35,688 bases of DNA from Candidatus Magasanikiibacteriota bacterium (GTDB taxonomy: Bacteria; Patescibacteriota; Patescibacteriia; Magasanikbacterales; UBA922), in contig JABJHO010000029.1 in assembly GCA_018661775.1 (NCBI GenBank), positions 1-35,688 on the forward strand, in the 5' to 3' direction. The position numbers were made by a program, and so were the translations under genes. The notes below the pieces were generated by a model. It searched no databases. It was given only the letters and a program-made list of their open reading frames with translations, and had not been told where the DNA came from. This document shows positions 2-18,875 of this stretch, piece by piece. Each line of letters begins with the position of its first letter. Position 1 is the stretch's first letter.

Positions 2-862
2 CGACCTCGTCCTGGGTCGAGTAATGTAAATTACTCAATTAAGGGTGAACGACGCCGCTTTCGCAATGCGCGCCGTGGTTCAGTCGACCAAGAGGTCGTT
101 GTCTGTGAGTGCAAGGAGTTTGCTCCGGCTCACGACAACGAGCTCTGTGAGTACTGTGGTGGTTTTGAGAGTGCGCCTGACCGCTTCGGTGTCGATGGTG
201 TGCTCGGAGACGCAGAGTTCCAGAATTTCGACTCGCTGTTGCGTTCTCGAATGCGCCCAAGTGGTCATGATGCTCGTTATTTACGATTAAACGAGTATCT
301 CCAGCCATTGGAGTCTCTTTTCCTCCACCGTATTGGGTATTCTTGGAATGAGATCTACTCGTTTATTCGGAAGAATGTACGAGTGGGGTCAGCCGTCGGT
401 GAGCACATTCTTCAGCATATTGAAGACTTCGTTCACTACCGTGGGGTTGTGGATGATATCGCTGAAGGTGAGCTACTCACCCATGGTGGTCAGGAGATCT
501 ATCAACCTTTTTTTGTGGACGGTGAGGGTGTGCTTCGTGCAAACCCAAGCCTTAGTCCAGGTTTAGCGCGATTTAGCTGGACTGGTCAAAAAGAAGGTTG
601 GGTGCAAATCGAAGGCCGCTATTACATCCTTCGGGATGATGGTCATTGGTTTGAGGTAGTGAGCCGCTCGAGCCGAGTGAACCCTCGGGACCTTAAGAGG
701 TTTCAGGAGGAGTTCGGTGTCGAAGGTGTCCCGTACGGGCTTAAGAGAATGTTGAGCAGCTACCATAGCTTCGGCACCGGGTTTTGCTACCCAGTGCTCC
801 GAGCCGTGTATGGCTCAGAGTTAGTTATGGTCCGCGCCAAGGCTGCTGAGAACACCATCTAA
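2..862 (+). CDS. hypothetical protein, 5' truncated by the window edge; N-terminal CxC...CxxC metal-binding-like motif
   Basis: Frame 2 is open from base 2 (RPRPGSSNVNYSIKGERRRFRNARRGSVDQEVVVCECKEFAPAHDNELCEYCGGFESAPDRFGVDGVLGDAEFQNF...) and continues into the listed ORF 200..862, so the listed ATG at 200 is probably internal. Confidence 0.75.
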   Translation, partial: RPRPGSSNVNYSIKGERRRFRNARRGSVDQEVVVCECKEFAPAHDNELCEYCGGFESAPDRFGVDGVLGDAEFQNFDSLLRSRMRPSGHDARYLRLNEYLQPLESLFLHRIGYSWNEIYSFIRKNVRVGSAVGEHILQHIEDFVHYRGVVDDIAEGELLTHGGQEIYQPFFVDGEGVLRANPSLSPGLARFSWTGQKEGWVQIEGRYYILRDDGHWFEVVSRSSRVNPRDLKRFQEEFGVEGVPYGLKRMLSSYHSFGTGFCYPVLRAVYGSELVMVRAKAAENTI

Positions 863-932
863 AAAACCGGTTACTGGTCCGGCCTAAAACCAGTACATAC
901 ACATGCGAGTCAACGCTATCGACTCTGTGTGG

Positions 933-960
933 CCACGTACTTCTTGTAGGTGGTTTTTTT
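933..960 (+). terminator. rho-independent terminator
   Basis: CCACGTAC-TTCTT-GTAGGTGG (one mismatch) followed by T7. Confidence 0.7.
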
Positions 961-1024
961 GATACAATACTATTGTGGGTGTGTGTATTGCTTTTTTTCC
1001 TTTTGACATGTATTATAGGCATAT

Positions 1025-1840
1025 ATGAGTTATATAAAAACACAAGAAGAAATACAGTATATCCTTGATGGAGGAAAAATACTTGGTGAGATCTTGGAAC
1101 ACCTCACCACATTGACTGTTCCTGGGGCAACAGCGTTTGACATAGATGCGGTTGCCGAGCGTTTAATTCGTGACGCTGGCGGAAGACCGGCGTTTAAAGG
1201 CTATAGACAAAGTAAACGAGATCCAAAATTTCCCTCAACAATTTGCGCTTCTGTGAATGAGGAGATTGTTCATGGAGTTGCAACAAAAGATAAAATCTTA
1301 AAAGAAGGTGATATTTTTAGTATGGATATTGGGATGCAGTGGCCAATGAATTGTGGAAAAGGGGAGAAGGGGAATGGTTTTTTTACCGACACTGCCATAA
1401 CGGTTCCGGTAGGTAAGATTGACACAAAAACTGAGAAATTATTGTCGGTAACAAAAAAATCACTTGAAATTGGCATTGAGCAAATGCAGATTGGTAATAC
1501 GGTGGAGGATATTGGAAAAGAAATTGAGCGATATGTGGCACCTCAGGGCTATGGGATTGTGCGACAGCTCTCTGGGCATGGTGTTGGGCATGGTGTTCAC
1601 GAAGATCCGTATGTACCAAATTATCACGATAGAAGTTTGTCTGAATGGAAGATTGAACCAGGGGTAGTATTGGCAATTGAACCAATGATCACATTGGGTA
1701 CTCATGAGATTGAAGTACTTGATGATGATTGGACTATTGTGAGTAAAGATCGGTCATTGAGTGGGCATTTTGAACACACCATTGTGGTAACAGAAAATGG
1801 TCCGGTTGTTGCCACCAGAAGACCGGGTGAAAAGAAGTAA
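1025..1840 (+). CDS. map: type I methionyl aminopeptidase
   Basis: Full-length ORF with GHGVGHGVHEDPYVPNY, VLAIEPMIT and FEHTIVVTENGP motifs. Confidence 0.96.
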   Translation: MSYIKTQEEIQYILDGGKILGEILEHLTTLTVPGATAFDIDAVAERLIRDAGGRPAFKGYRQSKRDPKFPSTICASVNEEIVHGVATKDKILKEGDIFSMDIGMQWPMNCGKGEKGNGFFTDTAITVPVGKIDTKTEKLLSVTKKSLEIGIEQMQIGNTVEDIGKEIERYVAPQGYGIVRQLSGHGVGHGVHEDPYVPNYHDRSLSEWKIEPGVVLAIEPMITLGTHEIEVLDDDWTIVSKDRSLSGHFEHTIVVTENGPVVATRRPGEKK

Positions 1841-1841
1841 T

Positions 1842-2231
1842 ATGAATATTTTAGGTGTTGATTTTGGTACAAAACGTATTGGTCTTGCGTGGATGCAAAC
1901 CGGTCTTGATATTGTTCTTCCGTTTGGTGTGGTAGAAAGAGGTTCACAAAATGATGTGCCAGACGCGTTGTTGCAGTGCATTAAAACAGAAAAAATTACC
2001 AAAATTGTTCTCGGTTTGCCATATACCTTAGAAGACAAAAGTGAAAATCAAAACACCCAGCGCGTGCGCGAATTTGCCAAAAAACTTGCGGATGCATCTG
2101 GGGTGTTGGTCGTGTTTACCGATGAGCGGTTAACGTCTTTTGAGGCAGATAATATGGGTGGGGAAGCGAGTCGTGATGAAAAGGCGGCAATGGCCATTTT
2201 GCACACATACAAAGATGAGCAAGGCATGTAG
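1842..2231 (+). CDS. ruvX: Holliday junction resolvase-like protein RuvX/YqgF
   Basis: MNILGVDFGTKRIGLAW start; VLGLPYTLEDKSE and VVFTDERLTSFEA motifs; start 1 nt after the map stop. Confidence 0.9.
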   Translation: MNILGVDFGTKRIGLAWMQTGLDIVLPFGVVERGSQNDVPDALLQCIKTEKITKIVLGLPYTLEDKSENQNTQRVREFAKKLADASGVLVVFTDERLTSFEADNMGGEASRDEKAAMAILHTYKDEQGM

Positions 2232-2232
2232 T

Positions 2233-2964
2233 ATGCGAGCAATTGTATTGGCACGAGAAGCATATAGGGAATATGATCAGCGTATTACGGTGTTAACACA
2301 AGAATACGGAAAGCAAGTGTATATTGCCAAGGGTGTAAAAAAGATTACGAGTAAAAATAGCGGTGCACTGGAGCCGTGTTCTGTTGTGGATATACACACT
2401 ATTCAAGGTAAAGAGAGTAAATATGCAACCTCAGTTCATTTGATTGAGGTGTTTTTTGTTTTACGACAAGACATGCATGCGTTGTTGTGTGCGCAGCATA
2501 TTGCTCAGACTATGTGCCGCGTACTTGCGGTTGGCGAAAAAGATGTTCGAGTATATGCTTTGTTTTTTGATTGGCTTTCTGCTGTCAACAGCGGGTCGCT
2601 TTTATTGGTTCACTGTGTGGAGTATTTTTACATTTCTTTTCTCGAAGTGTTGGGGTATTCGTTGCAAGATATTATTGCTTTTGGTTCTGCTGTTTCAAAA
2701 GGTGATACGACGTGGTATTACTATTCTTTTGCAGATGGAAGAGTATATACAAAAGAGGTGGCACCAAACCAAGAGCGAGGCTGTGTACGTGTTTCTGGTG
2801 CATGTATTGCTGCGTTACAGGAAGCATCTTTGGGTGTGTCTGTCAAAATACGCATATCGGTGCAGCAAGAAGTGCGTGAATTTTTGCATGCGGCACTTGA
2901 GTATTATACAGAAAAGCCACAAGTGCATTGGCATATGATTGCGCATGTAGGACAAAGTGCATAA
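2233..2964 (+). CDS. recO: DNA repair protein RecO
   Basis: MRAIVLAREAYREYDQRITVLTQEYGKQVYIAKGVKK is a RecO N-terminal OB-fold signature; ATG 1 nt after the ruvX stop. Confidence 0.85.
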   Translation: MRAIVLAREAYREYDQRITVLTQEYGKQVYIAKGVKKITSKNSGALEPCSVVDIHTIQGKESKYATSVHLIEVFFVLRQDMHALLCAQHIAQTMCRVLAVGEKDVRVYALFFDWLSAVNSGSLLLVHCVEYFYISFLEVLGYSLQDIIAFGSAVSKGDTTWYYYSFADGRVYTKEVAPNQERGCVRVSGACIAALQEASLGVSVKIRISVQQEVREFLHAALEYYTEKPQVHWHMIAHVGQSA

Positions 2965-3050
2965 CTGTATGCTATTGTATGGTGCATACAATTGTGCTAT
3001 GATTACCTTGGTAAGAGAGGTTTTTTCTCTCTCATTTATTTTATTGTATT

Positions 3051-3914
3051 ATGCAAAAATTACAACAACTCTTTAGAGATTTTGGTAAAAGTCTCTATGA
3101 TTTCGAATGGATTGCCAGGCAGCGTGGCGCAGGTTTGCGTGGTATGAAACTTGTTGCATTGCTTGCAGGAGTGTCGTGTATTGTGGCGATGATTTTTATT
3201 TCTCAAGGCATTACATATGTGGCCGGAGACATAAAAAAAGAAGTGCAACAGCTACCTGACTTTACGGCATCATTTGAGGAAAAAGTGCTTACAGTTACTG
3301 GTATAGAACAACCATTTACTAGGCGATTTGAAGATGTAGAAAAAAAAGATGATAATGCTCCTGTTGTTTTTCATGTTGACACGAATTCAGATGTAGCTAT
3401 TGACCCAAAAACACTGCAAGAAAATGATGATGAAGTGGTGATTTCTGTTGGAAAAGAATCAGCAAGTTTTTATGATCCTATGCAAAAAAAAGCTGAAACC
3501 TTTTGGTATCCAGAAAGTGCCTCCTCGTTCACCAAAGGGGATGTGGTTAGTATGGTTGGGAAGCTGATAGGTGTGTATGGCTATGCACTTGGCTTCTTTG
3601 CGGCGCTTATTATAGTGTCTATGGTATTTGCATGGAAACTTGCGTATTTGCTTCTACTCACATGGTTTGCGTATGTGTATAATCGCCTTGCGAAGAAACA
3701 GTGGACATTTTCTGAATTATACGGCGTTGGATTGTATGCAATTATTTGTCCATCACTGGTATTTTCTGCATTAATGGTGTTTGATGTGTTCTTGCCGTTT
3801 GGTTACTCAGTGCTTGTGCTTGTGTTCTTTTTTATGATAATAAGAAGAAGTGGGTCACAAAATGAACAAAAAGCACTGGAGGCGGATAATACTACATCAG
3901 AAAAATCTTCGTAG
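3051..3914 (+). CDS. integral membrane protein, DUF1189-like
   Basis: One N-terminal TM segment, an extracytoplasmic domain and several C-terminal TM segments; N-terminal FGKSLYDFEW resembles DUF1189. Confidence 0.6.
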   Translation: MQKLQQLFRDFGKSLYDFEWIARQRGAGLRGMKLVALLAGVSCIVAMIFISQGITYVAGDIKKEVQQLPDFTASFEEKVLTVTGIEQPFTRRFEDVEKKDDNAPVVFHVDTNSDVAIDPKTLQENDDEVVISVGKESASFYDPMQKKAETFWYPESASSFTKGDVVSMVGKLIGVYGYALGFFAALIIVSMVFAWKLAYLLLLTWFAYVYNRLAKKQWTFSELYGVGLYAIICPSLVFSALMVFDVFLPFGYSVLVLVFFFMIIRRSGSQNEQKALEADNTTSEKSS

Positions 3915-3953
3915 GGGTGGTTAAAAAGCATAGCGGAATACATTGAGAAAGCC

Positions 3954-3982
3954 TTGCCTTTTGGTTCGTTCTCGTGTATTCT
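3954..3982 (+). promoter_or_regulatory. sigma70-type promoter for tRNA-Trp
   Basis: TTGCCT-N17-TATTCT about 12 nt upstream of the tRNA. Confidence 0.55.
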
Positions 3983-3993
3983 ACTGTGTACAT

Positions 3994-4067
3994 GGGCGCG
4001 TCGGTTAATGGTAAACCACTGGTCTCCAAAACCAGAACTGTAGGTTCGATTCCTACCGCGCCTGCCA
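3994..4067 (+). tRNA. tRNA-Trp (anticodon CCA), 3' CCA encoded
   Basis: Cloverleaf: acceptor GGGCGCG/CGCGCCT, anticodon arm CTGGT-CTCCAAA-ACCAG, T-arm GTAGG-TTCGATT-CCTAC, then GCCA. Confidence 0.93.
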
Positions 4068-4077
4068 TCGTGTAATG

Positions 4078-4103
4078 ACAGAGGTTAAATCCTCTGTTTT
4101 TGT
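4078..4103 (+). terminator. rho-independent terminator after tRNA-Trp
   Basis: ACAGAGG-TTAAAT-CCTCTGT followed by TTTT. Confidence 0.8.
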
Positions 4104-4149
4104 GTTTCTGTGGTAAAATAGGGACAGACTAATTTTTGTAATACATCTT

Positions 4150-5625
4150 ATGATAAAACGATCATTAGTTTTGCGTAAACTGTTACTTGGTCACCAAAAC
4201 CCACATACACATATTGCTGTCGCAGAAACAGAGGATAAAAAATATAGGTATAGTGTTATACAAAAATCAACTCGGTCAAAAGAGGAGAATGGTTTATTAG
4301 AAGATGATAGAGATAGATTATTTTCTTGTTTTAAGAATCTTCAAAATGATTATAAGAAACAGACAGATGAAGTATTTGCAAAAGAGTATGCAGATTTTGT
4401 TTCGGCACGTAATGATTTTTTGATTCGTTATTCTCCTACTTTTGCCCATAATAAAAATCCAAGGAAGTTTTCCGTAGACTTTGTTCCCATTCTTGAGTTG
4501 CATGGCTTAAATGAGTTTTTAGACTCCTTTCCATTACAATTTATTCCAACAAAATGTGAGATTGCAAGAATACTTGGTTTGGCAAAGCGTATGCACGAAA
4601 TTCGTTTATGTCGTGGTGAAAAACACAAAAAAGACCCAATAGAAATAGTAGATATTGGTGGAGGAAACGGAGCGCTAGGAAAACTGATTACGAATTTGGC
4701 AGCTGAAAATAATATTGTAATTAACTACACAACTGTTGATCCAGATAAAACAACAATACAATCTGCTTTAGATTATTATAAAAACGACAAAAGCTTAAAT
4801 TTTTTTATAGGAAATGCAGAAGATTTTGTTTTAGAAATGTATAAGGAGGTTCCAAGTGTTTATACACTTTTAAAAGAACGCAAAAAACTAATTTTGGAAG
4901 GTGAGGAGAGGATATCCGATTTGCAAATTGTGTTACAAACTATCTTACAAAATGAAAACCACCAAGACACATGTTCTGTGCCACTTTTGTTTTTAGACGT
5001 ATTAGAAAAAGATTTTGGAATAACTTACTTTAATTTGGTTATTGATTTAAAAAGTGAAATTATTTCTAGTATTGAGGAAAAATATATAAATAACTGGCGA
5101 GCTAAAATAAACGAACTTACACAAAAAATAGGAAAGGTAATCGCAGAACAACCCGCGCGGTTTGATCTTGTAATAAATTCGTGGATGCCTCCGGGAATTG
5201 ATTTTACAAAAGATATTCGTGAAGCTGGAGGTGTTGCAATTTTGTATGCTCTTGAAAGAAATGGTATTTCTGGTTGTAGAATCGACTTGTCTTACAACGA
5301 TACAATAAAAACACTAGGTTATGAAGAAAGTTATGTGCCAGGACCATATTATGAGCAATTGTATGGGTGGTTAAGCCACTCCACACCACAAGCCAGAGCA
5401 ATGGATCAGCTTGGGCAGGAATATTTTTATAAAGACGTGGGGAAATGGGCAAAGTCATTTTCAAATGCGTTTGTGGTACAAATTCATAAGGATTACACTA
5501 GAGGTGGTCATTTCTTAAACCAAAAGGGCACTGATTTAGTGTCTAGAGAAATTTATCCCTGGGAAGAAGATCTTATGCGGCGCGGCGGGCCAGAAAAGCC
5601 CGTTTTTACAGAGTTTACCGTTTAA
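4150..5625 (+). CDS. SAM-dependent methyltransferase-like protein of unknown specificity
   Basis: Glycine-rich motif I IEIVDIGGGNGALGKLI followed by an acidic residue (TTVDPD) typical of Rossmann methyltransferases. Confidence 0.65.
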   Translation: MIKRSLVLRKLLLGHQNPHTHIAVAETEDKKYRYSVIQKSTRSKEENGLLEDDRDRLFSCFKNLQNDYKKQTDEVFAKEYADFVSARNDFLIRYSPTFAHNKNPRKFSVDFVPILELHGLNEFLDSFPLQFIPTKCEIARILGLAKRMHEIRLCRGEKHKKDPIEIVDIGGGNGALGKLITNLAAENNIVINYTTVDPDKTTIQSALDYYKNDKSLNFFIGNAEDFVLEMYKEVPSVYTLLKERKKLILEGEERISDLQIVLQTILQNENHQDTCSVPLLFLDVLEKDFGITYFNLVIDLKSEIISSIEEKYINNWRAKINELTQKIGKVIAEQPARFDLVINSWMPPGIDFTKDIREAGGVAILYALERNGISGCRIDLSYNDTIKTLGYEESYVPGPYYEQLYGWLSHSTPQARAMDQLGQEYFYKDVGKWAKSFSNAFVVQIHKDYTRGGHFLNQKGTDLVSREIYPWEEDLMRRGGPEKPVFTEFTV

Positions 5626-5713
5626 TCATTTCATTAACGTATACCTGTTTTTGACAATAAGTGTTTTTTTTGGTTTAGTATATGCAGCTCTTTTCATTTC
5701 CTTGGAGGAAACA

Positions 5714-7102
5714 ATGGAAGATTCTATAATTTATTTACCACAAACCCGATCTAGCGGATTGCGTGAAATTCTTGTTGGTGCTGCAAATCCACGATCAATA
5801 TTCATGAGATCTGATGTGCATGACACTATGGAGGATGGTACAAAATGTATCACTCGTTTGTCAACAAGAGACTCTTTTAAAAAGATTGTACAACGTCCTG
5901 CTTTTTGGTATGTTCCAAGATCAGTAGATGTTGCACGTGTTCTTACCGCGGCACAACACGCACATCTGTCTCGTGTAAAGAAAGGATTAAAATGTGCGTC
6001 TGACCCTATAACAATTGTTGATGTAGGGAATGGGTACGGCGACTTGTCTGCACTTATTCTTGCTACAGCCAGAAAACAGCGCTTGCGTGTTACTTGTCAG
6101 GTTGTGAGCCTACAGGCATCCACTATCCAAACGCAAAAAGAAGTTTATCGCTCTACCAGAGAACTCTCTTTTTTTTGTGAATCACAATTACAAATGTTAT
6201 TACGTATTTGGGGTGATCAACCACATATTGTTTCGGAGATTTCTGCGCTTGCAGAACGTATAACGCGATCAAAAGAGCCTTTGTTTGATTTACGCAGACT
6301 TGGTCAAGTGTATACTACCAATTTTAATGCACGTAATATATCTCTTGGTGATGTACACAGCTATACGCGTATTTTGAAGGAAGATTTTGGCATAAAATTT
6401 CCGTCTGATTTTGTAATTCGTTCTGGAACATTGTATCAATTATTTGAAAGAGGTGTACAGTTTACGCAGTTTACACCACTTTTGGAGTTTATGGCTAAAA
6501 AATATTCAGATATATGGATCAAAAGACTCGAGCGCGTAGAAGATTTTTTGGTCAAGTCAAAAGAGTGTGGAGCAGACATGGTGTTGCAAACCCAAACATC
6601 TCTTGACCATGGTGTTTCTGCATATGTGCGACTGGTTCGTGCTGGTATTGTTGGGCATGTTTTTGACTGTGGAACACGTAAACAGGATTACAGAAGCACA
6701 CCGCGTGCAGATACTACTTCATTTAATGTTGTCGATGATTGTGCTCTTGGAGATCAGTATGCACCGTCTTGTGTGTGGAAAGGGGTTTCTGTAAAAGAAT
6801 CCACTAAAGATGGTGTAGGGTGTGAGGATATATTTGCCACATTCTCACGATCTGGGTGTGCTGCTCAAAAGCTAAAAAGGAAGGTTAGTAAACGCCCTCA
6901 ACCGCTGTTCTTGTTGCATGGGTGTACTTATTTATTAGACAGCGAAGATGTGTATAAGGTGGTAAACAATGCTAAGAGTCTCGGGATGTTTGGGTGGGAA
7001 AAATCACAGGTAATTAAAGAAGTGGTTTGCACAGGTGTTACTTCATTACAAGATGTATCGCATTACTCTATACGTAATATTAAAAGAGTAGTGAGGCGTT
7101 AA
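5714..7102 (+). CDS. diverged paralog of the preceding methyltransferase-like protein
   Basis: SD GGAGG at 5704-5708 supports the ATG at 5714. ITIVDVGNGYGDLSALIL aligns with the upstream motif I; KYSDIWIKRLERVEDFLVKSKECGADMVLQTQTSLDHGVSAYVRLVRAGIVGHVFD aligns with KYINNWRAKINELTQKIGKVIAEQPARFDLVINSWMPPGIDFTKDIREAGGVAILYALERNGISGCRID. Confidence 0.65.
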   Translation: MEDSIIYLPQTRSSGLREILVGAANPRSIFMRSDVHDTMEDGTKCITRLSTRDSFKKIVQRPAFWYVPRSVDVARVLTAAQHAHLSRVKKGLKCASDPITIVDVGNGYGDLSALILATARKQRLRVTCQVVSLQASTIQTQKEVYRSTRELSFFCESQLQMLLRIWGDQPHIVSEISALAERITRSKEPLFDLRRLGQVYTTNFNARNISLGDVHSYTRILKEDFGIKFPSDFVIRSGTLYQLFERGVQFTQFTPLLEFMAKKYSDIWIKRLERVEDFLVKSKECGADMVLQTQTSLDHGVSAYVRLVRAGIVGHVFDCGTRKQDYRSTPRADTTSFNVVDDCALGDQYAPSCVWKGVSVKESTKDGVGCEDIFATFSRSGCAAQKLKRKVSKRPQPLFLLHGCTYLLDSEDVYKVVNNAKSLGMFGWEKSQVIKEVVCTGVTSLQDVSHYSIRNIKRVVRR

Positions 7103-7156
7103 AAAAGTGGGGTGTAGATAAGAGATTCTTTTGTTGGTGTGGTTAATTAAAAAAGT

Positions 7157-7179
7157 AAGAGGCTAAAGCCTCTTTTTTT
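7157..7179 (+). terminator. rho-independent terminator
   Basis: AAGAGGC-TAAA-GCCTCTT followed by a T run. Confidence 0.85.
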
Positions 7180-7247
7180 ATTCAGACATATTTAGTGGGG
7201 ATAGTATAAAAAGTATGATACATTAATCATTTTTGTGAAAAAACAAT

Positions 7248-8240
7248 TTACAGAAAAACACATAAACCAATTTGTTCACCCGCGCCTGTTGCCGCGATTC
7301 CATACGTTCCAATAAGTATAAAAGGTTCTGATGCAAAAAGTGTGGTTGATTTGCCGATCCATGGTTGAAAAACAGTTGCGTAAGGTTGGTTTTTAAGCAC
7401 TGTACTGCCCGGGTCAACGAGCCAGCTATAATACCCTGCAATTGGTGCGTGTAAATGATTGTGTTGACTAAGAGGAACGCATTTGACTGGGTTTGTTTTT
7501 TTATTTTGCCAAACCACTTCTAAGAATTCTGTCAATTGCTCAAACCTGTTGTTGAGTTTTTCTCTATCTATTGTTCCGTGACAATCCACTTCCCACGTTG
7601 CGGCATGTGGTGTTTTATCAAAAGGAAGTGTTTCAAGAAACGGAATAACATGTGATTCATCAAATGCACCAATTGCCACATCTTTTTCCCATAAAATTTG
7701 CACCATTGGATCAAGTGCGGCAAATAGATGTGAACTTTTTTTGTGAGTAAAAATATGTGGAGCTGTTTTATTACCAGTGGTGTGAATGTCTAGAATAACA
7801 TCACTACCTATGCTTAATAACATTAAGTTTGCCGCCAGACTTTCTTCAATGGAACCATTGCTCTTTTTAAGTTGATTGAGATAATACACTTCTTGTTCTT
7901 TGGTCGACTTCCATTTTTTGTCTACAGTAAAAATTCTATTCCAATTTATACCACTTATTGGATTTGATCTTCCGGTAAGTGCATTATACGATTTTTGCTG
8001 AACAGCAATGGGGTTTGCGCAAGGGACCATAGAAACACTTCCGGTAATAGAAGCTTTTTTTTCTAAATATTCTATTAATTTGGTAAGTAATGCAGTGCCA
8101 AACACCTCTGGACCATGCAGGTTAGCTTGAATATACACTTTTTTTCCTTCTAAACCAGAGTCAAAATTGTACTCATGAATCATAAGTATTTCTCCTGTTG
8201 GGAGTTGTTGCACGGGGATTGTTTTTTTTGTATATATCAT
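7248..8240 (-). CDS. succinylglutamate desuccinylase/aspartoacylase family (M14-like) protein
   Basis: VYIQANLHGPEVFGTALL (HGxE zinc motif), VPCANPIAVQQKSYNALTGRSNPISGINWNR and DVILDIHTTG motifs. Confidence 0.82.
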   Translation of the reverse strand: MIYTKKTIPVQQLPTGEILMIHEYNFDSGLEGKKVYIQANLHGPEVFGTALLTKLIEYLEKKASITGSVSMVPCANPIAVQQKSYNALTGRSNPISGINWNRIFTVDKKWKSTKEQEVYYLNQLKKSNGSIEESLAANLMLLSIGSDVILDIHTTGNKTAPHIFTHKKSSHLFAALDPMVQILWEKDVAIGAFDESHVIPFLETLPFDKTPHAATWEVDCHGTIDREKLNNRFEQLTEFLEVVWQNKKTNPVKCVPLSQHNHLHAPIAGYYSWLVDPGSTVLKNQPYATVFQPWIGKSTTLFASEPFILIGTYGIAATGAGEQIGLCVFL

Positions 8241-8254
8241 AAGATAAAAATGTG

Positions 8255-8288
8255 GTTCTCAGCCAAGTGTGGTGGCTTGACTGAGAAC
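8255..8288 (-). repeat. intercistronic stem-loop between the GNAT and aspartoacylase-like genes
   Basis: GTTCTCAG-C-CAAG ... CTTG-A-CTGAGAAC: 8 bp + mismatch + 4 bp, 8-nt loop. Confidence 0.7.
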
Positions 8289-8294
8289 AATAAA

Positions 8295-8768
8295 TTAAGG
8301 GATAAAGAGCCAAAGTTGACACTCATTGTCTACTGCTCTAAATGGGCACATAGTCTTTTGCGCTTCTTGGACTCTGTCACAAGGTTTGCATGTGGCACAC
8401 CATGGAACTATATTCCATGTGGAAATAGTTGCTTTTGCCCAATTAAACTTTTCTACTTGTTTTACAACTTTCTTGTTGTGGGTGATAAGCATGAGTTTAT
8501 TCACATTATTTTTCATTAGGGTAGAAAATACTTTACTAGATAAACCTTTACCGCGGTGTATATGGTTTACCCAAAGAGTTCCTAACTCTCTCCAATGTGG
8601 ATCAGGCGTTTCCCATAACGCACCAAAAGCGATAATTTCTCCATTTTCCTCCTCATACGTAGCGTAGTTATTATACACAAGGTCTTGTAGTGTTGCGCCG
8701 GTAATACGTGGCAAAAGTAAAGCATCTTCTTTTTCTAGTTCTGTGACAAGAGTATGCCATTTTTTCAT
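8295..8768 (-). CDS. GNAT-family N-acetyltransferase-like protein with Cys-rich C-terminus
   Basis: IAFGALWETPDPHWRELGTLWVNHIHRGKGLSSKVFSTLM resembles the GNAT core; SD AAAGGAGG upstream on the minus strand. Confidence 0.72.
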   Translation of the reverse strand: MKKWHTLVTELEKEDALLLPRITGATLQDLVYNNYATYEEENGEIIAFGALWETPDPHWRELGTLWVNHIHRGKGLSSKVFSTLMKNNVNKLMLITHNKKVVKQVEKFNWAKATISTWNIVPWCATCKPCDRVQEAQKTMCPFRAVDNECQLWLFIP

Positions 8769-10859: not shown

Positions 10860-12215
10860 TTACAAAGAATCAATATGATTCACGAGTGCGTTTCCCCAGG
10901 GTGTAAATACACACGGTGTGTTGGTGTCGCAACCATCAAGAATATGAAAAAACCATTCTCCAGCGCTAAATTCTGCACTTTCAAACAAGGTGTGAATACC
11001 AATATTTTTTTCTAAGTTTTTTGCATGGTTTTCTTGTACAATTTTACTATAGCTTAGGAGCCACTCTTTGGTTTTTTGTGTGTCCCCAGAAGAGAGTCCA
11101 ATTTCTGCTATTGTTATTAGACTGTTCTTGTACCTCTTGGCGGTGTTGAAGATAGCTCGAGAAAAATATCTACTGCTTGGAGAAAAATCCATTTCCGGAA
11201 GGGGCATTTGCAAGAATAAGGTTGGTGTGGGCTTTATTAATACAGCTTCTTCCTTGTTTTGCATTGTTCCGTAATAAGTTATACCAACAGTAAACGGAAT
11301 TGTTTGGCTATAATATTCCGAACACTCTCTTGAGAAAAAATTATCTACACAACTGTTAACAAGTGCGTCTAGAAGCCACCAGTTAAACACATAGTCAAGT
11401 ATAGGGTCAAGTGTATCTTCTTCTTTTTTTACTCGAATATTTTTTGCAACCGCTGGCTCCCATTGTGCCTCTTGAATACGTTTTCCACCTTCATGTACAG
11501 CGTCTCTTAGGTTGATCATGGCTGAGTAGAGCCCTGCTATAGCTCTTTTTCCGCCCGGTGGCCAGTTACCGTTTCCCAGGTAGCTGTTAAACAGCATCGC
11601 AACAGGTTCGTTTATAAGGTAAACACGGGTTCCTGTTGGCAAAATTGGCTTGAACAAACGGATTACATCGCTTACGTATGCAATATATGTGTTTTTGGCT
11701 TCTGGGTTTGCCCAACCAGATCGTGCGATTTGTGCTGATCCGCCTGGTTTGTGGAGTGAAGCTGGGTAGCTGTCATGGTGAGAAAGTGTTAGTTCTATGA
11801 CAAAACCAGCTTCCTGTAGGTTTTGGACTGTATCCACAATATTGTTTCTCCATGTGATATTACCAAAACATGGCCAAGAAAGAGAGAGGCGAAGTGTTGG
11901 TATTTTTTCTCCTATTAGTGAAAAAGCTTTTTTTGCAGCTTGTGAAAATTTTCCTAAGCTTCTGAACCTTTTAACATATTGTTCTTGTAGGGACACACTT
12001 GCGGATTCTCCTGATTCTTTTAGTTGTGAAAAGAGCATTGTCCAGCCACTTGGGCATATCTCTTCTGATAAGCTTTCTGTTACAAGCTGGTTGGTAGAAG
12101 AGACGGCTGTCCAAGAAATGTTTGTTCTGTATACTGTCGGCACGTCTGGTGTCGTGTCGCATGACAACAAAGTATACGTTAAAGATATAACACAAATAAT
12201 CGCACGTGTGTTCAT
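10860..12215 (-). CDS. predicted secreted lipoprotein with glycoside hydrolase family 1-like TIM barrel
   Basis: Signal peptide/lipobox MNTRAIICVISLTYTLLSC; GH1-like LRLSLSWP, ELTLSHHDSYPASL, GW(A)NPEAKNTYIAYVSDVIRLFK, YLINEPVA (NEP) and LITIAEIGLS (TENG-like). SD AAAGGAGG upstream of the ATG. Confidence 0.72.
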   Translation of the reverse strand: MNTRAIICVISLTYTLLSCDTTPDVPTVYRTNISWTAVSSTNQLVTESLSEEICPSGWTMLFSQLKESGESASVSLQEQYVKRFRSLGKFSQAAKKAFSLIGEKIPTLRLSLSWPCFGNITWRNNIVDTVQNLQEAGFVIELTLSHHDSYPASLHKPGGSAQIARSGWANPEAKNTYIAYVSDVIRLFKPILPTGTRVYLINEPVAMLFNSYLGNGNWPPGGKRAIAGLYSAMINLRDAVHEGGKRIQEAQWEPAVAKNIRVKKEEDTLDPILDYVFNWWLLDALVNSCVDNFFSRECSEYYSQTIPFTVGITYYGTMQNKEEAVLIKPTPTLFLQMPLPEMDFSPSSRYFSRAIFNTAKRYKNSLITIAEIGLSSGDTQKTKEWLLSYSKIVQENHAKNLEKNIGIHTLFESAEFSAGEWFFHILDGCDTNTPCVFTPWGNALVNHIDSL

Positions 12216-12333: not shown

Positions 12334-15300
12334 ATGCCAGGAGAACCAACAGGTATACCAAGTGGGCTTTCACGGGAAAAAGTTCCTTCAAAAGAGGTGG
12401 TCAAAGTTCAGGAAACAGGAGAATCTACGCCACCAAAGTCAGTGGACGGCGTTAGTCGTTTCCTTGAAAATGGAATTACAACCACTGTGCATGAAGTTGC
12501 AGTAGAAGCAAGAAATTATTCTCGTAGTGTGTGCGAGTTTCGTGAAATTTTTAGAGGTGAGAAAAATGTCAAGGGTTTTGGTAGGCTTTTAGAGGCTATT
12601 GAGAGAGTGCAAAATATACACACAACAGAAACTAATCCACGACAAAGCTATGATAAAAAAATTCAGAGCTTATTACAGACATTAGAAGGTGCTCAAAGGG
12701 TAACAGGTTTAACAGGAGAATTTTTACGAGCTGTGCTTGTGGAAGCTATAGATAATGATGAGGTGAGAGGTCTGTTTCCGGCCGGAAATACGGGCGTGCA
12801 GGGCTTGGTTGATAGGCTCTCTGGATTAGATAGTCAAACAGGTAACAGGGACCAGCGAAAAAACTATATTAAACATTGTCTTTTTGGTTGTGTTACAGAA
12901 AAAGAAGGTGAGAGTCCTGAAAGTTTACAAGAAAGACGGAGACAATCTTGGGAGCAAAAACATACGGTTTTGACTAAGAAATTTTTACAATCATTCAAAA
13001 TTTTACAACAAAGGGATAAGCCAACAGAACCAACAGAACCAACAGAACCAACAGAGCCAACAGAGCAAACAGAACCACCAGTGACACCTCCTGAAAATGA
13101 CAAAATAACACCTGAGAATCACGAAAAAAAAGAAGGAGGAGAAAAACCACCGGCACATTGGACAATTACACCATCTTTTAAAAACACAAAATATTTCATC
13201 GGCAGTAGATGTGATCATTTTAATACGGAAACATCTATATGGGAGCGACGTGAGGAACGACATTTTATTCCGTGTAGCCCTATCCCTAAGTATGAGGGTG
13301 AAAAAGGCGCAGGACAGGGAAATTTTGCATATAACATAGAAATGAGCGGAAAGGTGTATTGTGGTGAAGATAACACTGTTCACCTTACATATACTCATGG
13401 TTTTAGTGAGATAGAATTTTTGGATGACATAGACAGAAACTATACTGTGACAGAGGATCAGCATGGTGGTTTACGCTTGGTGATTCATAAGGCAGGAGAA
13501 GATGATTCAGTCGCATCTGTGAAGATTGTGTTGGGGCCCAGAGAGGATCACAGGAGGGCATATCAGCGTTCTCGTGACGGAGCAGATCCAAGGATCCCAC
13601 ACTTTGACTTTGATGAGAGTAAGTTGACAGACAAGACCAAAAAGGCGATTGAAGCTATAAAAAGCAGTGGAAAAAGTATCGAAGAGCAGATATTTATGCT
13701 AGGCATGTATGTGAGGGCTAATATAAAATACTCTACCGATGAATCTAAGAATAGTTTTTATAAAAGTCACGATGATGGGTATGTGGTGGCGGTAGACCAT
13801 GCTGAAGAAGGGAATTGTGGTGTTGCTAATACGTTTTTTGCAGGTCTTTGTGCAAAACTTTTTGAAGTACCTGTAAGAATGTGTGGTGGACATAGTGTGA
13901 AAGGAAATAGTGGTGATGGTACTTCAAGTATTAACAGTGGCACGGGTCATGCTTGGTGTGAGGTTTGGGATACAAAATTAGGAGCTTGGAAAATATGTGA
14001 CGTTACCTCAGGAGATGATCCAAACGTGAATGATGACGAGACGGATGGTCCAGTAGCAGATGTTGATGGTGATGAGCAAGATACTGGAATTGAAGAGAAA
14101 CCAAAAACTGATGAGGAGTTAGAAGAGTATCGAGATCAGCTAGAGGAAAATGCCGAAAAAACAAGTTATAGTACGGAAGAGCTGGAACTTGCAGAAGCGG
14201 CTAATATAGAACCAAAAGAAGCAAGGGAGATTGTCAAAGAGATAAATGAGGCACTGGATCACAAGATAGATGGTAAACTACTTATTCAGCATCTTGAGGA
14301 CATGTTTACTCTTGTTGTTGCCGAGCTCAAAAAGAGTAAACCAGTCAAAAAAGGCCCTCTTAGAAAAAGGGAGGGTGGTGGAAAGGTGATGAGAGATAAA
14401 ATGATAAAATGGTATATAGAGGGGGTAAAGGGAAATATTCCAGATCCGAGTGTTCGTGAATACGAGGCCACAAAAGAAGAAAAAGAAGATTTTTTTGGTG
14501 GGTTTAATGTCTATTTTATTGGTGATAAGTCTGGTTCTATGGGTGGAGGTGACAATTCACTTCTTGCAATGCAGAGAAAGGCTATACACCTTATGTTACA
14601 TTCGCTTCATGTTAATTTTCAGTACAAACTAAATAACAACAACATCCAACCAGACAAGGCGCTGACTGTTGAAACTCGAGTGACGTCTTTTCGTGGCGAA
14701 CATGAGATTGACGAAGATCTTCCGTTAAGCACAGAGCTTCATCAACTTGCCAAGGTGACATTATGGAACAGTCTCTCTGGCGGAGGTGGAGGGAACGGGG
14801 ACGTTGCGGCACTGTCTGACACATATAGGCAGATTGCCGAAGAGGTTCGACAAGAGAAAAAGGAGGCCGAAGAACGTGGTAATGAATATAGGCCAAAACT
14901 ACGCCTTGTCTTGCCTTGTTCGGATGGTGCACCAGTAAGGCCAGCAGAAGTAAGGGCATGGGCCGCACTAATTGGTCGAATAGGTGTGGATGATAATTTA
15001 CTGGAATTTGACGAAAAGGGAGTGCTTACAGAAGAATCACAGAAGATGTTTGCTGAGCTGGTTGAAAAAACAAATGAACAGATGGTTGCTGAGAGAAGTG
15101 GATCTATGTCAAAAGATATAGCTGTACATGATTCTCCAACAATTGTTGTAGGTATGGGATTAACTACTTCTGCAAACACAGTGCCAGACATATATACTTC
15201 ACCATACAGCAGAGGGGTGTTGGTGCCAAATATTGATGATTTACCGATTGTTGTGGCAGAACATTTGGTGGGTGCGCTTATTAAACTTTTACCAGAAAAA

Positions 15301-15390
15301 GTTAGAGATAAGAAGAGGGCGGAGCTTAAGGATAAATTGGAAAGTCTTAGTAAGAGGAGTGGGGTTTTGGGGGAAAGTACAGGCGAGTAA
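12334..15390 (+). CDS. large multidomain protein: transglutaminase-like domain plus von Willebrand factor A domain
   Basis: TG-like Cys/His/Asp: EEGNCGVANTFFAGLCAKLFEVPVRMCGGHS ... GTGHAWCEVWD ... WKICDVT. VWA MIDAS: FNVYFIGDKSGSMGGGDN. Confidence 0.82.
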   Translation: MPGEPTGIPSGLSREKVPSKEVVKVQETGESTPPKSVDGVSRFLENGITTTVHEVAVEARNYSRSVCEFREIFRGEKNVKGFGRLLEAIERVQNIHTTETNPRQSYDKKIQSLLQTLEGAQRVTGLTGEFLRAVLVEAIDNDEVRGLFPAGNTGVQGLVDRLSGLDSQTGNRDQRKNYIKHCLFGCVTEKEGESPESLQERRRQSWEQKHTVLTKKFLQSFKILQQRDKPTEPTEPTEPTEPTEQTEPPVTPPENDKITPENHEKKEGGEKPPAHWTITPSFKNTKYFIGSRCDHFNTETSIWERREERHFIPCSPIPKYEGEKGAGQGNFAYNIEMSGKVYCGEDNTVHLTYTHGFSEIEFLDDIDRNYTVTEDQHGGLRLVIHKAGEDDSVASVKIVLGPREDHRRAYQRSRDGADPRIPHFDFDESKLTDKTKKAIEAIKSSGKSIEEQIFMLGMYVRANIKYSTDESKNSFYKSHDDGYVVAVDHAEEGNCGVANTFFAGLCAKLFEVPVRMCGGHSVKGNSGDGTSSINSGTGHAWCEVWDTKLGAWKICDVTSGDDPNVNDDETDGPVADVDGDEQDTGIEEKPKTDEELEEYRDQLEENAEKTSYSTEELELAEAANIEPKEAREIVKEINEALDHKIDGKLLIQHLEDMFTLVVAELKKSKPVKKGPLRKREGGGKVMRDKMIKWYIEGVKGNIPDPSVREYEATKEEKEDFFGGFNVYFIGDKSGSMGGGDNSLLAMQRKAIHLMLHSLHVNFQYKLNNNNIQPDKALTVETRVTSFRGEHEIDEDLPLSTELHQLAKVTLWNSLSGGGGGNGDVAALSDTYRQIAEEVRQEKKEAEERGNEYRPKLRLVLPCSDGAPVRPAEVRAWAALIGRIGVDDNLLEFDEKGVLTEESQKMFAELVEKTNEQMVAERSGSMSKDIAVHDSPTIVVGMGLTTSANTVPDIYTSPYSRGVLVPNIDDLPIVVAEHLVGALIKLLPEKVRDKKRAELKDKLESLSKRSGVLGESTGE
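13021..13074 (+). repeat. 9-bp in-frame tandem repeat (CCAACAGAR)n encoding a PTE linker
   Basis: Six consecutive units: CCAACAGAA x3, CCAACAGAG x2, CAAACAGAA. Confidence 0.9.
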
Positions 15391-15448
15391 GCATGATCAA
15401 ATAACGTTTAATTGTACACACATTATTTATTTTAAACTATACAATAAT

Positions 15449-18199
15449 ATGAGAACTCAAGAGATACTCAAACAACCGTATATCCCAGAAGGGGTCAAAG
15501 AGGTAAAGGTAACCAAAGAGAACAGTGTTGAAACCGCAAGAAAATGGGTAGACAGGATTGTGCCCAAGGAAAAAGGAGATGTGTCGACGACATTAGACCT
15601 AGATACTCGTGGTGGTTTTGAGGGTGAAAGTGTACAAGTCTATACATCTGATTTCGGTTTGTATATAATTGGTGAAAACAATGAAAGGGTTTTTCTTGGT
15701 AAAACACAAGAGGAATTAGCAGGGGCGGCCCCTGATGAATTATCCACCTTGATTACAGAGACCAAAAAAGAAGTAAGTGAACAATCCAAGGCAAATGTTG
15801 GAAAGAGTGATAGTGAAAAGATACGAGAAATGCACAGACTTGTTTTGAGTATAATTAAACATGCAAGTGATCAAAAAAAAATAAAGCAAAGCTGTATAGA
15901 TGAAGGTGATGAGTATTTATACGAACGAGTTCCAGTTGAAAAAGAAGATCTTAATGAGTTTGCATTATTGGCACTCGACAAGGAGCTTATGGAAAAAGGT
16001 TTTGCGTTGTGGGGACAAGAGGTGCCAAAAATGATTATACAAGAAGGAGAAGTATTACGGACTGAACTATTTAGATTGATAGGTGATTTGGAGGGGGCGC
16101 GCCAGAAGGTGAGTGGTACTATAAGAGAGATTTCTCTTTTTACACCAAGAAAGACTCCAGGAGAAATACGTAGATTAACGAATATAAAAAAAGAGGAGAT
16201 GAGGAGTGATTCGCAGCTTTATAGTCCGGATGGTGAGATCACAGAAGAGGGAAAAAAGGTGTTAAAAGAGTATTTTCAAATGCTAAACAGAGGTGGTGCA
16301 AATAAAGGCGCGCTAACAAGTCGTTTAGTTACGGCAAAAAACGTAGAACGGAGATTAGAAAAAGAACTTGCACAAAAATTACATCCTGAAGTGCCTACAG
16401 AAGAGTCTGTTGAGGCAATAGCTGACTATAGGTACGTTGAATTGCAAGAATATTTGGATCAGCTTAATACAGGAAAATTTATGTGGACGCCAAGCAGAAG
16501 AAAATTTTTGCAAAATATGTTAGGTCAGTCAGAGAAAGATATATTAGTTATACTTGGGCCATCTGGGACAGGAAAATCTGTATTAGCAGAAGCATTTGCA
16601 AGAATAACAACAGGACAGGAATCACTAACAGTGAACTGTAGTGAAAAAACAAGTCAGGAGGTTGAGGCAGAAATGGGGTTTAAAGATGGGGAGTCTGTCT
16701 GGAATCTAGGACCTTTGGCACAGGCTATGAAGGATGGCAGAGTGTGTAGATTTGAGGAAGCCTATAGGATGAATCCTGAAGGGGACCTGTTTGCTATCTT
16801 GAAAACCATACAACAAAAAAGTATTGGAGACAAGTATAGACTTCCAGGTGGTGAGGAGATAACTATTCAGCCTGGTTTTAGAATACTATTTACCACCAAT
16901 CCAGAAATGGAAGGCAGGTATCCTGGGCGTAATAATCCAGAATCGGCGTTTAGGCGTGAATGTGCTATTCTTAATCTACTAGACATGGAGCAGAGCAATG
17001 AGAATCCAGAGGTGCACACTGCGCTGTTGGTGGCAAGTTCGACCGAAGGAAAGCTTACGTCTATAGATAAGGATGATCTTGGGCCAGCCTACACCACTAT
17101 AAAAGGTTTAAGCGAAAGTGTTAAAGATGCCCAAGGCAATGACAGAACTATAATAGAAAAACAAGAAATTATTGAGGATCCCGCAGACTTACGTCATGGT
17201 GCGTTGTGGCGTTTGGCAAATGCGAGCAAGGCACTATTTGATGCCTTTTCTGCAGCGGAGATAGTTGCAGAGAATAAAAAACCTAAGGTGTTACAAGTTG
17301 TTATTAAGGAAGGCAAGAGAAGAGTTGCGACAGAAAGTGACTCGGGTGCAGTAAACATACACACAGATACCAAGTTATCAATAGGACCTTTGATTGACTG
17401 GGTGCAAGGGTATGAAGTGTGGAAAAAAGATAAAAAGAGCCAAGAAAGTAGCTTAACCACCTATTTGAATGAACGTATTAGGCAGTATTTAGAGAAAAAT
17501 GAAAATGAGGTGGAGGATATGGATGCTGCTAGGGCAGTGTTTGAACACTATGGGTTTCTTGATGATGAAAAGGCTAAAGCAAAAGAAGGTGATCAATTTG
17601 CCACATTTATTGACATTGCCATGGCTTCGCCTACTGTACCAAGGGCGGTAACATTTGAAATAATAGAAGAAGAGGAGGTTAAGGAAGTTGAAACTATTGA
17701 AATTGCTGAAGACGTGGACATTGATACAGAAGGTGCAAATATCTTAGAGCTTATACTTGATGGAGGGTTTGAAAACTATAAGGTGACTCCGGTGGCGCTT
17801 GAAATAACACACACAAAAGACGGGGAAAGTGTGGTAACTACGTATTCACCAGGAACTAAATTTCTTGATGCAGCTGGTGTGGAATATGAATTTGTGGGCA
17901 CAGTAAATGAAGGGCAAGACAAGGCAGGTAAAGTGGTGGCAAAAGTAAGAGATAAGGATGAGTATAAAACATTTGAGCAGCCAAGTAGTGACACAGAAAA
18001 AACCATTGAACGCGGTATTTACAAACATGAGGCAGAACGTATGATAAAAGAGGTGGGTGATTTAGAAGGAATATGGAAAGGGTATACATATCAGGAAGAA
18101 CATAATGACTACGAAACAGATGGAAGTGGGAATTTCAAAGTGTCTGGGGCGTTAATAGAGTTTAAAGGATTTATGGAAATGGTTTGTAGCGAAGCATAA
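15449..18199 (+). CDS. MoxR-like (AAA_5/dynein-related) AAA+ ATPase with long N- and C-terminal extensions
   Basis: Walker A ILVILGPSGTGKSVLAEAFA, Walker B-like GRVCRFEEAYRMNPEGD, sensor 1 FRILFTTNPEMEGRYPGRNNPESAFRRECAI. ATG at 15449 avoids overlap with the upstream gene; the listed 15233 start is less likely. Confidence 0.85.
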   Translation: MRTQEILKQPYIPEGVKEVKVTKENSVETARKWVDRIVPKEKGDVSTTLDLDTRGGFEGESVQVYTSDFGLYIIGENNERVFLGKTQEELAGAAPDELSTLITETKKEVSEQSKANVGKSDSEKIREMHRLVLSIIKHASDQKKIKQSCIDEGDEYLYERVPVEKEDLNEFALLALDKELMEKGFALWGQEVPKMIIQEGEVLRTELFRLIGDLEGARQKVSGTIREISLFTPRKTPGEIRRLTNIKKEEMRSDSQLYSPDGEITEEGKKVLKEYFQMLNRGGANKGALTSRLVTAKNVERRLEKELAQKLHPEVPTEESVEAIADYRYVELQEYLDQLNTGKFMWTPSRRKFLQNMLGQSEKDILVILGPSGTGKSVLAEAFARITTGQESLTVNCSEKTSQEVEAEMGFKDGESVWNLGPLAQAMKDGRVCRFEEAYRMNPEGDLFAILKTIQQKSIGDKYRLPGGEEITIQPGFRILFTTNPEMEGRYPGRNNPESAFRRECAILNLLDMEQSNENPEVHTALLVASSTEGKLTSIDKDDLGPAYTTIKGLSESVKDAQGNDRTIIEKQEIIEDPADLRHGALWRLANASKALFDAFSAAEIVAENKKPKVLQVVIKEGKRRVATESDSGAVNIHTDTKLSIGPLIDWVQGYEVWKKDKKSQESSLTTYLNERIRQYLEKNENEVEDMDAARAVFEHYGFLDDEKAKAKEGDQFATFIDIAMASPTVPRAVTFEIIEEEEVKEVETIEIAEDVDIDTEGANILELILDGGFENYKVTPVALEITHTKDGESVVTTYSPGTKFLDAAGVEYEFVGTVNEGQDKAGKVVAKVRDKDEYKTFEQPSSDTEKTIERGIYKHEAERMIKEVGDLEGIWKGYTYQEEHNDYETDGSGNFKVSGALIEFKGFMEMVCSEA

Positions 18200-18242: not shown

Positions 18243-18275
18243 AAAAAAGATGCGATAGTATTCGCATCTTTTTTA
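18243..18275 (+). terminator. rho-independent terminator after the MoxR-like gene
   Basis: AAAAAAGATGCGA-TAGTAT-TCGCATCTTTTTT. Confidence 0.9.
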
Positions 18276-18476: not shown

Positions 18477-18875
18477 ATGCCAAAAAAGAAAAAACACACC
18501 ATATTGATTGTTGAGGATCACGATGCATTGCAAGATATTCTACACACCAAGTTTACAGAAGAAGGGTTTGATGTGGTAAGTGCAACAGATGGACAAGAAG
18601 CGCTCACAAAAGCTATGGAGCATCACCCGGACATGATAATCCTGGACTTGCTTATGCCAAAAATTGATGGACGACAGGTGTTGCAAAAATTACGTGCAGA
18701 CAGTTGGGGTAAATTGGTGCCGGTAATCGTGTATACCAATGTTTCTGAAGCAGAAGGGGTTGATGAAGTGTACAGGAATCAGTCATATGATTATATGGTA
18801 AAAGCGAACCATTCACTTGCAGATGTGGTGACACGGGTTCGGCAGCGATTAGCGATGCGTGGTTTGGCTGGGTAA
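18477..18875 (+). CDS. stand-alone response regulator receiver domain (CheY-like)
   Basis: ILIVEDHDALQDIL, MIILDLLMPKIDGRQVLQKLR and VIVYTN motifs; no output domain. Confidence 0.93.
   Translation: MPKKKKHTILIVEDHDALQDILHTKFTEEGFDVVSATDGQEALTKAMEHHPDMIILDLLMPKIDGRQVLQKLRADSWGKLVPVIVYTNVSEAEGVDEVYRNQSYDYMVKANHSLADVVTRVRQRLAMRGLAG

Follow-up and report, generated by a model that had tools for sequence, protein, structure and literature searches.

The window analysed here is the whole of contig JABJHO010000029.1 (35,688 nucleotides; contig C45 of a 981-kb genome of 100% completeness) from Candidatus Magasanikiibacteriota bacterium, assembly GCA_018661775.1. On its forward strand lie two consecutive genes, the first for a 1018-residue protein that joins a transglutaminase-like (TG) domain to a VWA domain, hereafter TG-VWA, and the second for a 916-residue MoxR-class AAA+ ATPase. 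A reading made from the sequence alone (the sequence-only reading) had proposed that the two form an NTP-dependent system, and we followed the pair through structure models, relatives in other genomes and published systems that resemble it. The open reading frames (ORFs) of both proteins are found where that reading had placed them. The ATPase ORF runs from the ATG at 15449; an alternative TTG start at 15233 would give a 988-residue protein, but would overlap the TG-VWA gene.

The TG-VWA protein and its ATPase partner

The features of the first protein are listed below (pLDDT, predicted local distance difference test; MIDAS, metal-ion-dependent adhesion site).

12334..15390, forward strand: TG-VWA protein, 1018 residues (ORF; Transglut_core; 32-member alignment; AlphaFold mean pLDDT 78)
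12448..13017, forward strand: all-helical N-terminal region, residues 39-228 (model secondary structure; N-terminal profile common to relatives)
13024..13068, forward strand: disordered PTE-repeat linker, about residues 231-245 (sequence; pLDDT <50)
13159..13539, forward strand: beta-rich domain before the TG core, residues 276-402 (model secondary structure)
13621..14043, forward strand: TG-like papain-fold domain, residues 430-570 (Pfam; invariant triad; Foldseek match to TgpA)
13816, 13948 and 13999, forward strand: TG triad Cys495, His539 and Asp556, respectively (alignment)
14110..14475, forward strand: helical connector, residues 593-714, common to relatives (linker profile; model)
14482..15294, forward strand: VWA domain, residues 717-987 (alignment; PF00092 in TG-less homologues; Foldseek matches to Rea1-MIDAS and NorD)
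14524-14538 and 14923, forward strand: MIDAS DxSxS and Asp864, respectively (alignment)

The fusion of TG and VWA domains proposed by the sequence-only reading was borne out. Transglut_core is matched in the window protein above the family cut-off (Pfam, 1.4e-6) and in 10/10 relatives scanned, and Cys495, His539 and Asp556 are invariant across 32 aligned sequences. We take the domain for a triad-bearing papain fold and a putative peptidase; the option of a crosslinker, also raised at first, gained no support over it. The VWA domain of the window protein gave no Pfam match at E<=1 and only one of ten relatives gave one (0.005); the homologous region of TG-less relatives matches PF00092 with values up to 1.6e-12. 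As neither phmmer (best 0.56) nor a profile returned a convincing match among PDB sequences for TG-VWA, fold comparison was required. The AlphaFold model, whose alignment input consisted of the window and related-locus sequences only, reaches a pLDDT of about 90 in the TG and VWA regions, and its Foldseek matches were the periplasmic TG domain of TgpA, Rea1-MIDAS and the VWA domain of NorD. The MIDAS retains D731-x-S733-x-S735 and D864, but in the group closest to the window GNGD stands in the region of the usual GGTP threonine, so that its first description as intact was slightly overstated. The PTE-repeat linker was located as described.

The second protein and the end of the unit comprise the following features.

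15449..18199, forward strand: MoxR-class AAA+ ATPase, 916 residues (AAA_5; profile matches to Midasin, NorQ and CbbQ; Foldseek matches to the NorQ hexamer and the NorQ-NorD complex)
16406..17128, forward strand: AAA+ core, residues 320-560 (invariant columns; model)
Core motifs, by residue: Walker A GPSGTGKS 370-377, Walker B FEE 435-437, sensor Asn484, Arg503, helix-2 insert strands 407-420
17744..17974, forward strand: post-AAA beta module, residues 766-842 (C-terminal profile; model; negative repeat scan)
about 18243-18275, forward strand: intrinsic terminator, end of the two-gene unit (RNA fold: 13-bp stem, -16.8 kcal/mol, z -6.3)

The assignment of the partner to the MoxR/AAA_5 type also held. 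The Pfam match to AAA_5 stands at 1e-16, and a ten-row profile of the ATPase found Midasin, NorQ and CbbQ among its matches in PDB sequences. The model has a mean pLDDT of 64, with 70-90 in the core, and its best Foldseek matches were NorQ hexamers and NorQ-NorD complexes, NorQ being at the top, followed by CbbQ and Rea1; the models of the two proteins together support TG, VWA and NorQ-like AAA+ folds. Strands 407-412 and 415-420 occupy the position of the helix-2 insert of the MoxR clade, Arg503, the arginine finger, is invariant in aligned relatives, and the position of the Walker-B aspartate is Glu in the window copy. In both proteins even the best 19-residue stretch near the N-terminus has negative hydropathy; there is no hydrophobic N-terminus, in line with the earlier remark that signal peptides are absent.

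Distribution, synteny and variable repeats in relatives

Homologues of TG-VWA were found in 10/144 genomes searched, the window genome included. A ten-row profile gave matches in 31/381 genomes of the class and 41/380 of the phylum; both counts include partial TG or VWA matches, and many of those in the phylum are weak. With the ATPase alone as query over genome contigs no related loci were found, and the ten-row TG-VWA alignment was used instead for a pattern scan over one genome per species (84,980 species), which yielded 38 loci. The lineages named among them are Uhrbacteria, Magasanikbacteria, Falkowbacteria, Moraniibacteriota, Komeilibacteria, Doudnabacteria, Gracilibacteria, Peregrinibacteria, Berkelbacteria, Levybacteria and the Parcubacteria/Patescibacteria group. 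Every title that names a lineage belongs to the candidate phyla radiation (CPR), the remaining titles reading 'bacterium' alone; as far as tested, the TG-VWA/ATPase pair is restricted to Patescibacteria/CPR. A phage, viral or plasmid origin was considered and dropped after viral contigs, phages and plasmids gave no match at the sensitivity used.

In the tree, the window's clade takes 18/37 rows (SH-aLRT 100). The spread is patchy, with several versions within one family: TG-VWA was not found in the single same-genus genome sampled, and in the window's family the copies of the window genome and G029 fall in one clade and that of G018 in another, a pattern suggestive of horizontal spread or of repeated loss.

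The neighbourhood of TG-VWA is conserved. After removal of duplicates, 40 ORFs carry both TG and VWA, and the counts that follow use the 19 loci flanked by 3 kb or more on each side. The AAA gene lies on the same strand as TG-VWA in 18/19, which upholds synteny of the pair across CPR, and 11/19 have a reverse transcriptase (RT) within 8 kb. This RT is RVT_1 in the three loci tested, and a PHROG reverse-transcriptase family was matched by both RTs compared with it. All bordering proteins tested (6/6) matched bAvd, that of L135 below the Pfam cut-off; Avd was found in all five loci tested, and 3/3 bordering proteins matched the PHROG entry 'Avd protein of DGR', DGR being a diversity-generating retroelement. 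We had also considered whether the loci without RT form a single clade, which is unsupported, RT presence being scattered over the tree.

A direct-repeat scan of the wider family revealed 26 pairs of template and variable repeats (TR/VR) in 15 loci. Template adenines hold 417/444 of their mismatches, a pooled figure partly fixed by the filter, which kept only pairs with at least 85% of mismatches at adenine; for most of the remaining imperfect repeats of these loci the share is 26-50%, the interval from 0.61 to 0.82 is empty, and one repeat at 0.83 (G430b) was excluded from the count. These counts come from a second setting, trimmed to the best segment with lower window and identity thresholds. 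A first, unbiased scan gave zero adenine-specific pairs, its untrimmed edges adding noise, and a scan limited to adenine mismatches had already revealed pairs, so the second setting was not blind. In 13/15 loci the VR and the 3' end of the AAA gene are 1-20 nt apart, such that in those relatives the motor protein itself bears a hypervariable tip. VRs also terminate companion genes of about 300 residues, and a segment related to the post-AAA beta module is found in the relatives' variable proteins. Twelve of the 15 loci show a TG-bearing gene, in G403 and G179 the VWA protein lacks TG, and G043 shows the AAA gene alone at a contig edge. To judge by these relatives, the pair appears to lie at the heart of a recognition machine that diversifies itself, probably an immune-like one. 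The two-gene module of the sequence-only reading holds insofar as the pair is conserved and ends at a terminator; it does not stand alone, for in relatives it belongs, as the core, to a larger DGR/sensor unit, which could not be seen from the window because the copy there has neither variable repeats nor companion sensors.

The variable domains could instead serve DGR-diversified attachment or host recognition, contacting host cells or other bacteria while the ATPase and TG-VWA process or deliver them. Indeed, one CPR/DPANN DGR group has been suggested to mediate host interaction (PMC10907252), and CPR targets have been reported without recognisable domains (PMC8144416). We consider this improbable, since neither of the two window proteins has a hydrophobic N-terminus and, with the VR fused to the ATPase itself in the DGR loci, a cytoplasmic sensor fits better.

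Several related architectures were also seen. VWA proteins of about 620-716 residues without TG occur in L079, L081, L082, L083 and L123, where an RT is in the locus, and in L124 and L125, where no RT was found in the stretch read; several of the TG-less loci have RT and/or AAA genes alongside, and the TG part looks optional or replaceable in the family. L124 also holds about nine variable-protein-like genes of about 270-340 residues, mostly in tandem and adjoining the VWA/AAA pair (3-8664 and 14108-15073), and no RT in the 18 kb read. In a second architecture (L086:4-7073 and L164:128-7150), a TG protein of about 1040-1095 residues, in which no VWA was detected, directly follows a protein of about 1290-1308 residues with a near-C-terminal AAA domain, and a similar TG protein is present in L084, L087, L161 and L163. 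Additional DGRs with adenine-only TR/VR mismatches lie away from the pair in pair-bearing genomes (L218:6802-7962, L216, L219 and L212).

Hairpin proteins and the state of the window copy

Most ATPases of the window's clade are short (about 680-810 residues) and end near the post-AAA beta module, as the window's does; L134 and L137 are exceptions with a variable end. Neighbouring genes in this clade encode proteins with a common N-terminal helical hairpin, starting M-x(1-5)-C, and differing domains thereafter: ends resembling C-type lectins (CLec) in L127 (twice), L130 and L131, judged by eye with no Pfam match, a WD40 end in L129 (Pfam, 4.7e-73), leucine-rich repeats (LRR) three times in L136 (Pfam, 1.5e-35), and beta repeats in G029 and L140. 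Such a gene adjoins the pair in L127, L129, L130, L131, L136, L139 (where the contig end cuts it) and L140. That CLec, WD40 and LRR proteins have this hairpin in common suggests that one core is fed by sensors diversified in two ways, by mutation and by duplication. As the hairpin profile was seeded with pair-adjoining genes, co-occurrence in G029, G131, G237 and G377 is circular as to presence; support from outside the seed comes from G071, where hairpin and VWA share a contig, more weakly from G120, and from many unlinked copies within the seed genomes, and G371 has a hairpin gene and no TG-VWA match. Copy numbers can be high: the Falkowbacteria genome G237 (L131; about 1.1 Mb) has about 14 scattered hairpin loci and no RT detected, and G131 has 8-9, with RTs present.

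Among the loci of G237 are L179, L186, L189, L191, L193, L209, L211, L220 and L221; several are truncated or interrupted by stops, and one is of the WD40 type. Three hairpin-CLec paralogues with divergent C-terminal tips (L127:7059-8312 and 13418-14698, and L184) come from a genome without detectable RT and are possibly the frozen products of a lost DGR. In L036 (G029; 1-1083) two hairpin genes lie by TG-VWA, and this single-contig genome shows no AAA match; the contig end falls inside a repeat, so an assembly gap is possible.

The window copy, as far as can be seen, is an intact but sensorless core, the sensor being lost or never present. The repeat scan found no variable repeat 3' of its post-AAA beta module, and one relative's variable protein used as query had no match in the window genome, where a diverged third gene was sought by profile searches only. 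The window copy would either rely on a diverged sensor encoded at another site of the genome or act on a fixed target. The terminator following the pair is as strong as the sequence-only reading had it. Directly 3' of it stands a lone response-regulator receiver domain (18477-18875), and no histidine kinase was noticed. The divergent 451-residue lipoprotein-like gene on the other side (10860-12215, reverse strand) has a GH1-like match only, below threshold, and no homologue of it adjoins the pair in the relatives compared.

A copy without a diversified sensor, whose closest folds are NorQ, NorQ-NorD and then CbbQ and Rea1, might also be a dedicated assembly or maturation chaperone like NorQ-NorD or CbbQ-CbbO, remodelling one endogenous complex while the TG-like domain trims the client's pro-peptide. 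This seems unlikely to us. No nor or cbb client gene was found among the window neighbours scanned or the conserved neighbours of the clade-A relatives, and the clade-A loci share no conserved client gene by the pair except the hairpin genes; the distribution is patchy, and the DGR mutation and swappable repeat domains of the relatives are ill-suited to a single fixed client.

Proposed mechanism and relation to known systems

We modestly favour the view that the pair supplies the NTPase and the output at the core of a sensing system of the MoxR-vWA type, one confined to Patescibacteria as far as tested. By analogy with NorQ, the ATPase would form a hexameric ring, and the MIDAS would be the site at which this ring docks the VWA domain, in the manner of NorQ and NorD. 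A sensor would bind a foreign or altered protein, and ATP-driven remodelling may then free the TG-like cysteine peptidase, which would cleave the captured or another protein; the gating of TG by the AAA motor is our inference, as it was that of the sequence-only reading. In the published MoxR-vWA model the vWA captures a peptide and the ATPase remodels it (PMC7159879), whereas an alternative assigns sensing to the DGR target and makes the ATPase the relay to a peptidase (PMC10907252). Both fit the data; the latter is favoured, as a single chain combines motor and sensor.

Our best reading is a TG-armed variant of the MoxR-vWA 'ternary' conflict systems, for which a role in defence may be inferred; the conflict or chaperone logic invoked at the outset was right as a probable one. 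The ternary systems include VMAP, iSTAND, FtsH and beta-propeller components (Kaur et al., 2020, PMC7159879) and TERNS3/iSTAND2 (PMC8195603). Like them, the pair and its relatives have a MoxR-clade AAA+, a vWA protein, a variable third component, frequent DGR coupling and a peptidase component, which in those systems is occasionally TG-like. The traits of MoxR-vWA pairs in general are present, namely the helix-2 insert with the arginine finger and the adjoining VWA co-chaperone; RT, Avd and adenine-specific TR/VR are present in relatives and absent from the window copy. Unlike the ternary systems, the pair has its TG N-terminal of vWA in the same chain, and the VR is borne by the AAA+ protein or small hairpin proteins and not by the vWA protein. 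The relatives' hairpin third genes had no Pfam match at 0.01 to VMAP, iSTAND, FtsH, the beta-propeller pair or TERNS3, not all of which may have a Pfam model. With neither an effector C-terminal to vWA nor a named third component, two defining ternary traits, we speak of a variant and not of a member.

Several observations weigh against this reading. In the window genome no RT was found by RVT_1 profile search and no hairpin protein by profile searches, nor did the repeat scan find an adenine-specific repeat in the window. The window's TG-VWA is a long branch in the tree; the neighbouring genes scanned are housekeeping-like, with no defence island seen. PADLOC, tried for a known defence family, gave matches within the ATPase only, apparently to a generic P-loop, and no family beyond them. 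Published ternary effectors are typically C-terminal of vWA and their hosts mostly multicellular (PMC7159879, PMC8195603), and CPR were omitted from the multicellularity statistics for want of information (PMC7159879). The long branch and the missing RT, TR/VR and sensor would also suit a functionless, decaying remnant of a lost DGR system. We hold this to be very unlikely for the window copy, since both long ORFs are intact, the triad, most of the MIDAS and the Walker A, sensor and arginine-finger residues are kept, the terminator is present, and the pair is retained in other RT-less relatives.

NorQ and CbbQ are the closest structures for the AAA+ core, with NorD among the closest for VWA; unlike NorQ-NorD and CbbQ-CbbO, the pair has a fused TG and large unrelated N-terminal regions, and no nor or cbb gene was recognised among the neighbours read. 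The TG fold matches the periplasmic domain of TgpA; unlike TgpA, the window protein has neither a hydrophobic N-terminus nor a membrane-like stretch. With RavA-ViaA the pair has the principle of MoxR plus VWA in common; RavA is absent among the sequence and fold matches listed, and ViaA is not known to have a TG domain.

MoxR-vWA conflict systems, occasional TG-like peptidases, DGR coupling and CLec-AAA targets in CPR were already known. CPR DGR targets described as 'CLec fused to AAA ATPase' (Paul et al., 2017, as cited in PMC10907252) resemble the ATPases seen here, in that an AAA ATPase carries a DGR-diversified C-terminal repeat. In the open-access literature searched, to which Paul et al. 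(2017) does not belong, no report was found of the TG-VWA partner, of the WD40 and LRR third genes, of a CPR TG-VWA/ATPase/DGR unit or of the hairpin repertoire. According to PMC8144416, most CPR DGR targets have no recognisable domains, and PMC10907252 describes one CPR/DPANN DGR group as unconnected with conflict-system domains.

More tentatively, and on balance doubtfully, the family might amount to an anticipatory, receptor-repertoire immunity in Patescibacteria, in which one MoxR AAA+/TG-VWA executioner would serve many interchangeable hairpin-adaptor sensors (CLec, WD40, LRR and beta repeats), diversified by DGR or gene duplication, the window holding the bare executioner core. In the CPR DGR literature covered, the AAA ATPase with CLec, the most common target of CPR DGRs, has no settled role. 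The conserved TG-VWA partner provides such DGR-target ATPases with an output that can be tested, a putative cysteine peptidase, and links them mechanistically to MoxR-vWA sensing systems, with two routes of sensor diversity leading into one core in bacteria with genomes of about 1 Mb.
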